NCBI RefSeq assembly: GCF_000325665.1
Contig: NC_019908.1
Location: 248,001 to 312,000, forward strand
Reading direction: 5' to 3'
Origin: Brachyspira pilosicoli P43/6/78
GTDB taxonomy: Bacteria > Spirochaetota > Brachyspiria > Brachyspirales > Brachyspiraceae
Length of the DNA: 64,000 nucleotides
Part shown: positions 55,636 to 63,630 of the stretch, piece by piece
How positions within the stretch are numbered: the first letter of the stretch is position 1
Layout: each line of letters starts with the position of its first letter
Notes under the pieces: generated by a model
The model's database searches: none
The model's input: the letters and a program-made list of their open reading frames with translations, nothing else
What the model was told of the DNA's origin: nothing
Made by a program: the position numbers and the translations under genes

Positions 55636-56190
55636 TCATATATCATCATTTAATATGGTCATATGTATATGGTCTTCCCATTTATTATTAATTTTTAAAT
55701 ATTTCTTTGCAAGTCCTTCGTATTCAAAACCTAGTCTTCTTGCCAAATCTAATGAAGGTTTATTATGCGGCATAATATTTGCCTCTATTCTATGAAGTTT
55801 CAATTCTTTAAATACTATGTCTATTGCATATTTTAATGCTTCTGTCATATAGCCTTTTTTTGTCTCATCTTTATCTAATTTATATCCAACAGTGCAAGAT
55901 AAAAAAGAGCCTTTTACTATATTAGCAAAACTAATCATTCCTATTATTTTTTTTCTATCTTCTATTTTAAATAGATAAAATTTAAGCATTCTTGAGTTTT
56001 TAGTATCTTCCATTTCTTTTTTTATAATATTTTTATGTGTATTAAGTTTATAAAATATATCAGGTCTGTATGGGTCAAACTCTTTAAAGAAATCTTTGTT
56101 TCTATAATAAAAATCAAAAATAGAATTAGCCATTTCAAGATTAGGCTGCACTAAAAGTAATCTGTTTGTATTATAACTTTTTTTAATCAT
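55636..56190 (-). CDS. GNAT-family N-acetyltransferase (RimJ/RimL-like)
   Basis: A 184-residue acetyltransferase. NRLLLVQPNLEMANSIFDFY at the N-terminus, a LSCTVGYKLDKDETKKGYMT acetyl-CoA binding region and LHRIEANIMPHNKPSLDLAR with RRLGFEYEGLAKKYL are the standard RimJ/RimL-type pattern. The substrate may be a protein N-terminus or a small amine. It follows ogt by eight bases on the same strand and ends the four-gene operon. Confidence 0.88.
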   Translation of the reverse strand: MIKKSYNTNRLLLVQPNLEMANSIFDFYYRNKDFFKEFDPYRPDIFYKLNTHKNIIKKEMEDTKNSRMLKFYLFKIEDRKKIIGMISFANIVKGSFLSCTVGYKLDKDETKKGYMTEALKYAIDIVFKELKLHRIEANIMPHNKPSLDLARRLGFEYEGLAKKYLKINNKWEDHIHMTILNDDI

Positions 56191-56198
56191 TTTTATTA

Positions 56199-56720
56199 CT
56201 ATCTTATTATTTTTAATTTATCTATATTAAAACCTTCAAGTTTCAGTAAATATTCCTTTTTTTCTATTCCTCCGGCATATCCTGTTAATTTCAAATCTTT
56301 AGAAACTACTCTGTGGCATGGTATTATAATTGGTATTTTATTTTTACCTTCAGCGCTTCCAACTGCTCTAAAAATACTGCCAAAACTGTTAGATATTTTT
56401 TTTGCTATATTGGAATATGTTTCTATTTCTCCAAAAGGAATCTTATAAGTTTCAATCCACACTTTATATTGAAAATCGCTTCCATATACTGCTATTGGTA
56501 TATCAAATATCTTTCTTTTTAAATTAAAATATTCATCTAACTCTTTTTTAGCTTCTTTTATAATTTCTGGTTCTTTATCAGTGCTTATACTATAATTGCT
56601 TTGAAAAGAAATAGAAGTGATATAATCTTTATAATGAGTTAAATATAAGTTTCCAATAGGGCTTTTATACAAAAACACTTTATCATCTATCTGACTATTT
56701 TCAAGTCTTATAATATTCAC
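56199..56720 (-). CDS. ogt: Methylated-DNA-protein cysteine methyltransferase
   Basis: Repairs O6-methylguanine by transferring the methyl to its own cysteine. It has 173 residues. The active site IPCHRVV with the acceptor cysteine follows the helix-turn-helix region (SNSFGSIFRAVGSAEGKN), and the end GYAGGIEKKEYLLKLE is typical. The start is GTG overlapping the stop of the isochorismatase gene (GTGA), so translation is coupled. No Ada-type regulator domain is attached. Confidence 0.92.
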   Translation of the reverse strand: MNIIRLENSQIDDKVFLYKSPIGNLYLTHYKDYITSISFQSNYSISTDKEPEIIKEAKKELDEYFNLKRKIFDIPIAVYGSDFQYKVWIETYKIPFGEIETYSNIAKKISNSFGSIFRAVGSAEGKNKIPIIIPCHRVVSKDLKLTGYAGGIEKKEYLLKLEGFNIDKLKIIR

Positions 56721-57358
56721 AGATGAACCTTTTTAAGATTAATGTTTTTTGTATTGGAATATAATTCATACACTTTATCTGGATTCATTGCAGCAGTTGC
56801 ATATTCTAAAACATTTACGCTAACTAAATATTCAGCATTAATAGAAGTTACATATTGAGCTGTATCTCTTGCCGTATAATAAACAGCATAATCCAAAGCA
56901 ACACCGACAAAATCTAATATCAATACTTCTTTATTTTCTCTAGCAGCATCTATAAAATCCTTATGCATATAAGAAAATCCAGATACTCCCTCATCATCAG
57001 CATCAACACCCTTTTGAACATAAATATAATCTTTTTTCTTTTTTAATTCATCAACAATAGCAGAGCCGAAAGTTCTAGCAACACAATGACGAGGCCAAAG
57101 TGTTAAAATATCTTCATCGCCAGTTTCTTGGTCCATTACTCTAATTTTAGAAAAAGGTTCTTTATTATGAGTAGAAGCAAAAGATATATGATTTGATGGA
57201 TGCCAATCTTGAGTAGCTATTATAGCATCATATTCTCCATTTTTTATAAGGTCATTAATTACAGGTATAAGTCCAATTGCTCCATTAACAGCCATAGGAC
57301 CGCCTTCCATATAATCATTTTGCATATCTACTATTGTTAGTATCTTAACCTTACTCAT
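56717..57358 (-). CDS. Isochorismatase/nicotinamidase-family protein lacking the catalytic cysteine
   Basis: A 213-residue protein of the cysteine hydrolase family, closest in layout to PncA nicotinamidases. VDMQNDYMEGGPMAV holds the catalytic aspartate (11); ATQDWHPSNHISF holds metal ligands Asp51 and His53; WPRHCV supplies His91; VQKG supplies Lys116. The nucleophile position, however, reads FVGVALDYAVYYTA, with Ala158 where PncA has GIALDYCV. The codon is GCT, so it is not a single-base error from TGT or TGC. Hydrolysis by the usual mechanism should be impossible, so it may be a binding protein or use another residue. It sits between an HD gene and ogt in one operon. Confidence 0.85.
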   Translation of the reverse strand: MSKVKILTIVDMQNDYMEGGPMAVNGAIGLIPVINDLIKNGEYDAIIATQDWHPSNHISFASTHNKEPFSKIRVMDQETGDEDILTLWPRHCVARTFGSAIVDELKKKKDYIYVQKGVDADDEGVSGFSYMHKDFIDAARENKEVLILDFVGVALDYAVYYTARDTAQYVTSINAEYLVSVNVLEYATAAMNPDKVYELYSNTKNINLKKVHL

Positions 57359-57380: not shown

Positions 57381-57953
57381 TTAAGATATTTTTTGTAATC
57401 CTATACTCTCTTGTATAGGTTTTAAAGCTTCTATAGTTTCTTTTATTAATTCATCTAATGATATATTAAGTCTTTCAGCACCGTTATTTATAATACTTCT
57501 ATCAACTTTAGCAGCAAAAGCTTTATCTTTTAATTTCTTCTTAACTGATTTTACTTCCATATCATCTAAGCTCTTTGAAGGTCTCACCAAAGCACAAGCC
57601 AAAATAAAACCTGCAAGTTCATCTACAGCATATAAAGTTTTTTCCATATTAGTATTAGGTTCTATATCTGTACATATTCCAAAACCATGACTTTGTATAG
57701 CTCTAATAAAACTTTCAGGCAAGCCTTCTTTTTCTAATATCTCTTTTACTTTTATGCAATGTTCATTAGGAAACATTTCATAATCCATATCATGCAAAAA
57801 GCCAACCATTGCCCATTCTTCAGCATCTTCGTTATATTTATTAGCAAAATATCTCATTACAGCTTCAACTGATAGGGCATGTTTAAATAGAGATGGTTCT
57901 TTGTTGTATTTTTTAAATAACTCTATAGCTTTTTCTCTTTCTATGCTTGCCAT
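57381..57953 (-). CDS. HD-domain phosphohydrolase-like protein
   Basis: 190 residues from the ATG at 57953, which has GGAG six bases upstream; the longer frame is unlikely. HD-domain features: HALSVEAVMRYFA (first His), GFLHDMDYE (HD pair), HSFG-like QSHGFG, and VDELAGFILACALVRPSKSL with the last Asp. Such proteins hydrolyse nucleotides or phosphate esters. A similar protein family, sometimes annotated hydrolase with no known substrate, is widespread in anaerobes. It is the first gene of the HD-isochorismatase-ogt-GNAT operon. Confidence 0.82.
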   Translation of the reverse strand: MASIEREKAIELFKKYNKEPSLFKHALSVEAVMRYFANKYNEDAEEWAMVGFLHDMDYEMFPNEHCIKVKEILEKEGLPESFIRAIQSHGFGICTDIEPNTNMEKTLYAVDELAGFILACALVRPSKSLDDMEVKSVKKKLKDKAFAAKVDRSIINNGAERLNISLDELIKETIEALKPIQESIGLQKIS

Positions 57954-58144
57954 TGATAACTCCAAATATGAAAACAATTATATAATATATTATTCTATTT
58001 TTCAATATAAAATTTTTATATAATAGTAGTTATTTTTATCTATTTTTATGTATATTATTAAGAATAAATTTATAATATTATTAATTGATATTTATTTTTT
58101 TTATTGTATAATAAGTTAAGTTAATAATTTAAGGATATTTTTTT

Positions 58145-61587: not shown

Positions 61588-63630
61588 ATGGAACAATTTA
61601 TAGATGTAGTAAATTTTGAAATAGAAGCAGGACATGGCGGAGCTGGGGGTGTGAGTTTCAGACGAGAAGCACATGTACCTATGGGCGGTCCAGACGGTGG
61701 AAACGGCGGAGAAGGCGGCGATGTAATAGTAAGAGTTGATGCGAGGATAAATAGTTTTGGAAAGATAAAAAGCAGAAAAAGATTTAGAGCAAGGGACGGA
61801 GAGCCTGGGAGAGCAAGGCTAAGCGACGGAAAAAAAGGCGATGATGTTGTTATAAGAGTTCCTATAGGCACAGTTGTTTATGATGATGATACAAATAATA
61901 TATTAGCCGATTTACTTGAAGACGGACAAAGCTTTACTGTTGCAAGAGGCGGTAAAGGAGGCAAAGGCAATAAGTTTTATGCCACTGCCACCAATCAAGC
62001 ACCAGACTATGCTCAGCATGGTTTAGACGGCGAAAAACTTAATATAAGATTAGAAGTAAAACTTATAGCCGATATTGGTCTTGTAGGCATGCCCAATGCT
62101 GGTAAATCAAGCTTACTTGCAAGACTTACAAGAGCAAATCCAAAAATAGCATCATATCCGTTTACTACACTTACTCCAAATTTGGGTGTTTGTTATTTAG
62201 ACTATGAAAGAAGTTTTGTTATTGCAGATATTCCTGGTATTATAGAAGGAGCTAGTGAAGGTGCTGGGCTTGGGCTTACTTTTTTAAGACATATTGAAAG
62301 AACGGGAGCATTATGCTTTGTTATAGATTTAACTGATGAAGATGTTGTTGATACTTATAAAAAACTTAGAAACGAATTAAAACAATATAGCAAAGAATTG
62401 ATAAAGAAAAAGTCTATAATAGTATTAAATAAAACTGATATGCTTGAAGAAGATGAAATAAAAGAAAAAGTAAAAGCTATAGAAAAGATTATAAAAAAAG
62501 AATATAAAAACAATAAAGAAACTCATTATGAAGAGCCTGAAATATTTGCTTTATCAGTATTTAGTTTAGACGGGGAGCTTCTTGATAATGTTACAAATGC
62601 ATTCTATAAGGCAAATGAAGATAGATACGACAACGCTAAAAAAGAAACTAAAGAGCCTTTGCTTCTTAATCAAAATAAAACTAAATCAAAATTAAAAACA
62701 AAAAGAGTATTTGGACCAGTAGTATCAAAAAGGCTTGGCAATTCTTTGGGAATAGATGTTATACCTCATAAAACCTGCTCTTATAATTGTATATATTGTC
62801 AGTTGGGTTCTGAAGAAAATACTAAAACTAGTCTTGCTAATTATTACTCTGTTGATGAGATAATATACGAATTAAAAGAGGCTTTGCTTAATAATAAAAA
62901 CATTGACTATATAACATTTGCTGGTTCTGGAGAGCCTACTTTATATAAAGATTTAAAAAAGTTAATTTATGAAATCAAACAAATAACAGATATTCCTGTG
63001 TGCATTATAACAAATGGTTCTTTGCTTTATAAACAAGAGATGCGTTCTAATTTGCTTATGGCTGATTTAATTATACCTTCTCTTGATGCCGGCAATATGG
63101 ATACTTTTAAGCTAATAGACCAGCCAAATAAAGAAATTGATTTTGATAAAATGGTTAATGGACTTATAGAGTTTAGAAGAGTTTTTGAGGGGGAGTATTG
63201 GCTTGAGGTATTTTTACTTAAAGGAATTAATGACAGCGAAGAAGAGCTTGATGATATAATAAAAATAGTAAATAAAATAAAACCTGATAAAGTTCAGCTT
63301 GTTACGGCAACTAGAAGAACGGCTAATGAAAAGGCTAAGGCATTAAGTGATGAAGAGATGGAAAAAGTAAAAAAATATTTTAATGCTCATTCTAGTATTG
63401 AAATAGATATACCAAGTGTATCAGATAAAGCAAAAGGAAACACTAAAAAAATTACTGAAGAAGATATAGTAAACTTTTTAATGAGGCAGCCTGATACTGT
63501 TCATATGATAGCTATTAGTTTTAATGAAGATGAAAAAAGGGTAGGCGAGTTATTAAAAAAATTAGTTGAAAGCGGAAAGGTGAGAGAGGAGATAGTTAAT
63601 GGAGTACTTTCTTACGCTGTAAATATTTAA
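61588..63630 (+). CDS. obgE: Obg-type GTPase fused to a radical SAM domain
   Basis: A 680-residue fusion. Residues 1-158 are the glycine-rich Obg fold (GAGGVSFRREAHVPMGGPDG). Residues 159-345 are the G domain: GMPNAGKSS (G1), DIPG (214-217), NKTD (281-284), LSVFS (322-326). After a lysine-rich linker (about 346-373), residues 374-600 form a radical SAM domain: FGPVVSKRLGNSLGIDVIP, then CSYNCIYC with Cys397, 401 and 404 for the 4Fe-4S cluster, FAGSGEPTL, and VCIITNGSLL. This is the COG0731 type, related to wyosine synthases. A winged helix closes the chain (TEEDIVNFLMRQPDTVHMIA). There is no stop, start or ribosome site between the halves except a doubtful TTG at about 62659, so it is read as one chain. 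Confidence 0.88.
   Translation: MEQFIDVVNFEIEAGHGGAGGVSFRREAHVPMGGPDGGNGGEGGDVIVRVDARINSFGKIKSRKRFRARDGEPGRARLSDGKKGDDVVIRVPIGTVVYDDDTNNILADLLEDGQSFTVARGGKGGKGNKFYATATNQAPDYAQHGLDGEKLNIRLEVKLIADIGLVGMPNAGKSSLLARLTRANPKIASYPFTTLTPNLGVCYLDYERSFVIADIPGIIEGASEGAGLGLTFLRHIERTGALCFVIDLTDEDVVDTYKKLRNELKQYSKELIKKKSIIVLNKTDMLEEDEIKEKVKAIEKIIKKEYKNNKETHYEEPEIFALSVFSLDGELLDNVTNAFYKANEDRYDNAKKETKEPLLLNQNKTKSKLKTKRVFGPVVSKRLGNSLGIDVIPHKTCSYNCIYCQLGSEENTKTSLANYYSVDEIIYELKEALLNNKNIDYITFAGSGEPTLYKDLKKLIYEIKQITDIPVCIITNGSLLYKQEMRSNLLMADLIIPSLDAGNMDTFKLIDQPNKEIDFDKMVNGLIEFRRVFEGEYWLEVFLLKGINDSEEELDDIIKIVNKIKPDKVQLVTATRRTANEKAKALSDEEMEKVKKYFNAHSSIEIDIPSVSDKAKGNTKKITEEDIVNFLMRQPDTVHMIAISFNEDEKRVGELLKKLVESGKVREEIVNGVLSYAVNI

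Follow-up and report, generated by a model that had tools for sequence, protein, structure and literature searches.

A clade-wide alanine replaces the catalytic cysteine of a constrained PncA-type nicotinamidase homologue in Brachyspira pilosicoli

The open reading frame at 56717-57358 on the reverse strand of the window, by which we mean the whole 64,000-nucleotide stretch of the genome of the gut spirochaete Brachyspira pilosicoli P43/6/78 that was analysed, encodes a PncA-type nicotinamidase homologue with alanine in place of the nucleophilic cysteine. The frame is unbroken, starts at an ATG and specifies 213 residues. Sequence and alignment agree that codon 158 (56885-56887, reverse strand), which occupies the catalytic cysteine position, is GCT and thus Ala, as the initial annotation had read it. 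Ala158 characterises a single clade, in which it is fixed, and the nucleophile-less gene is not decaying but is under strong purifying selection. The B. pilosicoli protein is probably no longer a nicotinamidase, an enzyme of vitamin B3 recycling, but a binding or regulatory protein.

Several lines of evidence define the family of this protein. It matches PF00857 with 32.3 bits (Pfam cut-off 27), and its best match by sequence in the PDB is yeast Pnc1 (2h0r). An AlphaFold2 model (pLDDT 88, pTM 0.86) finds nicotinamidases as its best fold matches in the PDB, with TM scores of about 0.7-0.78. Domain match and fold therefore place the protein in the isochorismatase-like hydrolase superfamily. Its score against NCBIfam PRK11609 (NF008623), 93.6 bits, lies under the equivalog cut-off of 174. 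Since the Cys-bearing orthologue of B. innocens also falls under this cut-off, with 96.9 bits, the equivalog threshold does not discriminate Ala from Cys proteins. Besides the likeness in fold, the protein has in common with PncA/Pnc1 enzymes (EC 3.5.1.19; yeast Pnc1 2h0r/3v8e, Acinetobacter baumannii 2wt9, Pyrococcus horikoshii 1ilw, Mycobacterium tuberculosis 3pl1) the Asp and Lys of the triad, the four metal ligands and the WPxHC and GxAxD motifs. It differs from them in the Ala for Cys, the sub-threshold equivalog score and a diverged C-terminal half. In the model, Ala158 is the first residue of a helix spanning residues 158-172; a helix of M. tuberculosis PncA likewise carries Cys138 at its N-terminal end (PMC3025910).

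Apart from the nucleophile, the active site is complete. The alignment matches Asp11 (57326-57328, all codons here on the reverse strand), the general base of the triad, which is invariant among the aligned homologues, and the triad lysine, Lys116 (57011-57013), with their known counterparts. The same holds for the Asp/His/His/His set of metal ligands, which is invariant: Asp51 (57206-57208), His53 (57200-57202), His57 (57188-57190), at the ligand position of M. tuberculosis His57 (PMC3025910), and His91 (57086-57088). The residues that the initial annotation had listed as kept (Asp11, Asp51, His53, His91 and Lys116) are thus all in place, and the Asp-Lys-Cys triad of functional PncA is incomplete only at Ala158. 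Altogether, 17 catalytic, metal and pocket positions other than 158 were checked, these six included, and none has changed. At the protein-wide rate, these 17 codons should have accumulated only about one change, so retention of the pocket is not significant by itself, and constraint is demonstrated for the protein rather than for the pocket specifically. The sole remaining cysteine, Cys92 (57083-57085), had been named as a possible alternative active-site residue. As a relocated nucleophile it can be ruled out, since it is invariant in 58/58 aligned homologues and occurs together with the catalytic Cys in the other homologues.

What the substitution should mean for catalysis can be gauged from characterised enzymes. 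D8, K96 and C138 play key parts in catalysis by M. tuberculosis PncA, and the nicotinamidase cysteine forms an acyl-enzyme by a thioester route (PMC3025910). Since characterised nicotinamidases act via this Cys acyl-enzyme, such a route should be closed to the Ala protein. Binding is a different matter, because the C136S mutant of SpNic (3O94), also a nicotinamidase with its nucleophile replaced, was crystallised with nicotinamide bound (PMC6271260). Loss of the nucleophile therefore need not abolish binding, which may persist in B. pilosicoli. The SpNic mutant carries an engineered Ser in a Firmicutes-type subfamily, whereas the B. pilosicoli protein carries a natural Ala that is fixed across species.

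The genus-wide alignment that the initial annotation called for shows how far this Ala extends. The B. pilosicoli group comprises seven rows, five distinct sequences and five species-level genomes, and Ala158 is present in 5/5 of these genomes. Four encode it as GCT (the window, L002/L082, L003/L084 and L083) and one as GCC (L085). All remaining Brachyspira sequences (35 rows, including duplicates under two ids) have Cys, encoded by TGT or TGC, as do 78/78 homologues from outside the Brachyspiraceae (61 in one alignment and 17 further ones read). On the gene tree, the Ala sequences form one clade, separated by a branch with a support of 100. The loss of the nucleophile would date to the ancestor shared by the B. 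pilosicoli group. The protein of this group is set apart from every other Brachyspira sequence at 16 sites; V125 and F97 are the only group-specific changes near the pocket motifs in sequence. A sequencing or assembly error at codon 158 is practically excluded by the independent assemblies, by the two base changes that separate TGT from GCT, a point already made in the initial annotation, and by the synonymous GCT/GCC difference. Strain noise can be ruled out too, since Ala is found in every sequence of the group.

Could the gene nevertheless be dead and on its way out, with decay still to come? The loss of an essential residue and the 16 sites unlike all other Brachyspira would fit such a scenario, but the codon data make it highly improbable. 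Pairwise dN/dS within the Ala clade is 0.02-0.06 at dS 0.11-0.45. In a purpose-written codon branch model (GY-type, F3x4), omega is 0.022 for the Ala crown, with a profile-likelihood interval of about 0.012-0.038, versus 0.0164 for the other (Cys) branches, a difference that is not significant (2dlnL 0.87). Neutrality is rejected, since setting omega to 1 for the Ala crown costs a 2dlnL of 262. On the stem, omega is 0.012 and hence not raised, although synonymous sites are saturated there and the value is weak. The frame is open in all five clusters, and together these data refute decay at the divergence sampled. Mean omega within the group is 0.038 for PncA, 0.051 for HD, 0.034 for GNAT and 0.126 for MGMT, the three other genes being those of the cluster described below; constraint on PncA is therefore similar to that on HD and GNAT and stronger than that on MGMT. 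The gene thus has the hallmark of a pseudoenzyme under selection, a homologue that lacks an essential catalytic residue and is still constrained.

The genomic neighborhood offers a candidate partner. The upstream gene of the cluster (57381-57953, reverse strand), 22 bp before the PncA gene, encodes an HD/HDIG-domain protein (PF01966, TIGR00277) with intact HD motifs. Its start is the ATG at 57953 and not the TTG at 57977, since homologues align from the ATG residue. By sequence, it has no match in the PDB. Downstream, on the same strand, lie an MGMT (Ogt)-type DNA methyltransferase gene (56199-56720), whose GTG start overlaps the PncA stop by 4 nt, and a gene for a RimJ-like GNAT acetyltransferase (55636-56190), both assigned from their reading frames, Pfam and NCBIfam and from their place in a genus-wide cluster. 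A sigma-70-like promoter (TTGAAA-17-TATAAT, 11/12) lies before the HD gene at 57977-58005, reverse strand; shuffled sequences yield as many such sites as the region does, so that only position and score favor this one. The HD-PncA-MGMT-GNAT cluster is old and common across Brachyspira. HD adjoins PncA in all Brachyspira loci checked except L017, always in B. pilosicoli, and also in 2/2 genomes of the sister genus (G026 and G027). Co-expression of the four genes, as put forward in the initial annotation, is made plausible by the conserved cluster, the 4-nt overlap and the promoter-like site, but MGMT is an inconstant member. It is gone from the cluster in B. catarrhinii (L005, L147), where HD, PncA and GNAT remain, and is also missing from that of G027, which leaves HD-PncA as the only near-constant pair. 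This linkage was found in 0/64 loci outside the Brachyspiraceae, the one bacterial family in which it was seen, and it proves no protein contact.

A nucleophile has been lost in the sister genus as well. The PncA orthologue of G027 (L128), likewise a member of an HD-PncA pair, has Ser (TCT) at the nucleophile position, in the motif GVTTDYSIF, and Asn instead of P89 beside the metal motif, whereas its sister G026 keeps Cys. This change to Ser, a single base in one draft genome, appears to be a loss independent of the B. pilosicoli Ala. Unlike G026, and unlike B. pilosicoli, G027 carries a second nicotinamidase homologue, an extra isochorismatase-family protein (L133:539-1084) with B. subtilis PncA (5zn8) as its best PDB match (E 2e-61) and GVCTDICV as its nucleophile motif. 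It is of the B. subtilis/S. pneumoniae type. To the extent that one draft genome can tell, G027 fits a case in which the HD-linked PncA was kept and nicotinamide hydrolysis was taken over by another enzyme.

We then considered NAD metabolism. NadA was found in 0/26 Brachyspira genomes, PncB in 26/26, CinA/PncC in 25/26 and PnuC in 20/26. In the P43/6/78 genome, the gene after PnuC encodes a NadR-like protein, identified as such by reading its sequence and not by a family search. Since NadA is missing and PncB is everywhere, Brachyspira is predicted to need a source of niacin and to depend on salvage. Gene content suggests that B. pilosicoli can dispense with a nicotinamidase and make its NAD from nicotinate or from nicotinamide riboside. 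No replacement nicotinamidase, SpNic-type or other, was found in B. pilosicoli among the PF00857 proteins of the genomes; if the step has been lost, nicotinamide would go unrecycled. The sole other PF00857 protein of the genome (G000 2480561-2481001) was rejected as a candidate because the DWH metal motif is missing from it and its resemblance is to YcaC (58 bits, against a cut-off of 310). The extra PF00857 protein of G012, a T010-like genome, was also rejected, as it resembles biuret amidohydrolase (285 bits, cut-off 370). It sits between two permease-like genes (L121:854-4636), and G012 is the only one of the 26 Brachyspira genomes with a third PF00857 protein. The distribution of PncB, NadA, CinA and PnuC over the 26 genomes does not follow the split between Ala and Cys and so does not explain why the loss is tolerated, and the open PMC literature yielded nothing useful on Brachyspira NAD metabolism.

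The explanation that we favor, with moderate confidence, is that the protein has lost amide hydrolysis and was kept for a second role, a metal-dependent binding of a pyridine that is connected with the HD protein. It draws on the fixation of Ala158, the retained pocket residues, the purifying selection, the HD-PncA pair and the independent Cys-to-Ser loss. Loss of the nucleophile would have removed amide hydrolysis by the acyl-enzyme route. The protein would have been kept because the HD-linked PncA of the Brachyspiraceae has a second job that predates this loss. Most likely, a pyridine such as nicotinamide, nicotinate or a relative would still be bound by the pocket and the metal site (D51, H53, H57, H91), and the protein, whether ligand-bound or free, may act upon, or together with, the HD phosphohydrolase encoded beside it, its presumed partner. 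A more specific possibility, which we put forward tentatively, is that HD-linked PncA is a metal-dependent sensor of pyridines (NAD precursors) that controls the HD phosphohydrolase, at first as an enzyme-sensor and then as a pure sensor in B. pilosicoli and, separately, in the sister genus. The initial annotation had proposed a pseudoenzyme or a changed chemistry. As far as sequence goes, the fixed Ala, the purifying selection and the Ser of the sister genus support this, while binding, regulation and inactivity are what we infer from them.

Changed chemistry is the main rival and seems unlikely. Asp11 and Lys116 would then perform acid-base catalysis, perhaps with a metal-bound water, on another substrate, like Cys-less isochorismatase-type members such as PhzD and YecD, and both residues are indeed kept along with all metal ligands. 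However, PhzD and YecD are not known to have the DxH...H metal motif of PncA, which counts against this reading. Both likewise combine Asp and Lys and have no Cys nucleophile, PhzD with D38-K122-G155 being an active isochorismatase and YecD being D-K-G (PMC5353710). Yet PhzD acts on a vinyl ether, and the Cys-less YecD showed no gamma-lactam hydrolysis (PMC5353710). Moreover, no substrate or pathway genes lie nearby, and V125 and F97 do not amount to a clear altered-pocket signature. While PhzD and YecD form a separate subgroup with Gly, the B. pilosicoli protein, with its Ala and complete metal motif, falls outside this D-K-G subgroup (Gly, no DxH...H) and is specifically related to nicotinamidases.

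A purely structural role, as a scaffold or folding partner (of the HD protein, for example) for which the pocket is irrelevant, would be consistent with the invariable position beside HD in B. pilosicoli and with constraint that is protein-wide, including a C-terminal half that is unlike ordinary nicotinamidases yet conserved in Brachyspiraceae. We consider this role quite improbable since the metal and triad residues, which one would expect to drift in the long run, all persist, although the sample is too shallow to tell. Very unlikely, finally, is residual nicotinamidase activity, by which water activated by the metal or Asp11 would hydrolyse nicotinamide slowly but fast enough for the cell. 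Salvage dependence through the missing NadA, the lack of another recognisable nicotinamidase in B. pilosicoli and the retention of every residue but the Cys speak for it. Against it stand the known mechanism via a Cys thioester (PMC3025910) and the possibility of making NAD without this step through PncB, PnuC beside the NadR-like protein, and PncC/CinA.

Text searches of the open PMC literature returned no description of a natural nucleophile-less nicotinamidase, and such a homologue is apparently undescribed there. Another spirochaete nicotinamidase homologue, Borrelia burgdorferi PncA (BBE22), differs from the B. pilosicoli protein in its canonical architecture and is described as active and as essential in hosts (PMC13398362). 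If the B. pilosicoli protein is a pseudoenzyme, it offers a clean natural experiment, since a single genus holds closely related orthologues that differ in having or lacking the Cys. The prediction is that B. pilosicoli is unable to use nicotinamide as a niacin source, unlike other Brachyspira.

Two further observations were made. In the Cys-bearing sequences L005/L089 (B. catarrhinii) and L105 (G001), Trp88 of the WPxHC motif, otherwise almost universal among the homologues, is replaced by Leu, and position 157 holds His or Asn, which looks like a further loosening of the nicotinamidase site within Brachyspira. Elsewhere in the window, a single frame at 61588-63630 on the forward strand encodes, in 680 residues, an Obg-type GTPase (PF01018, PF01926) fused to a radical SAM domain (residues 392-554, PF04055), an apparently unusual combination.
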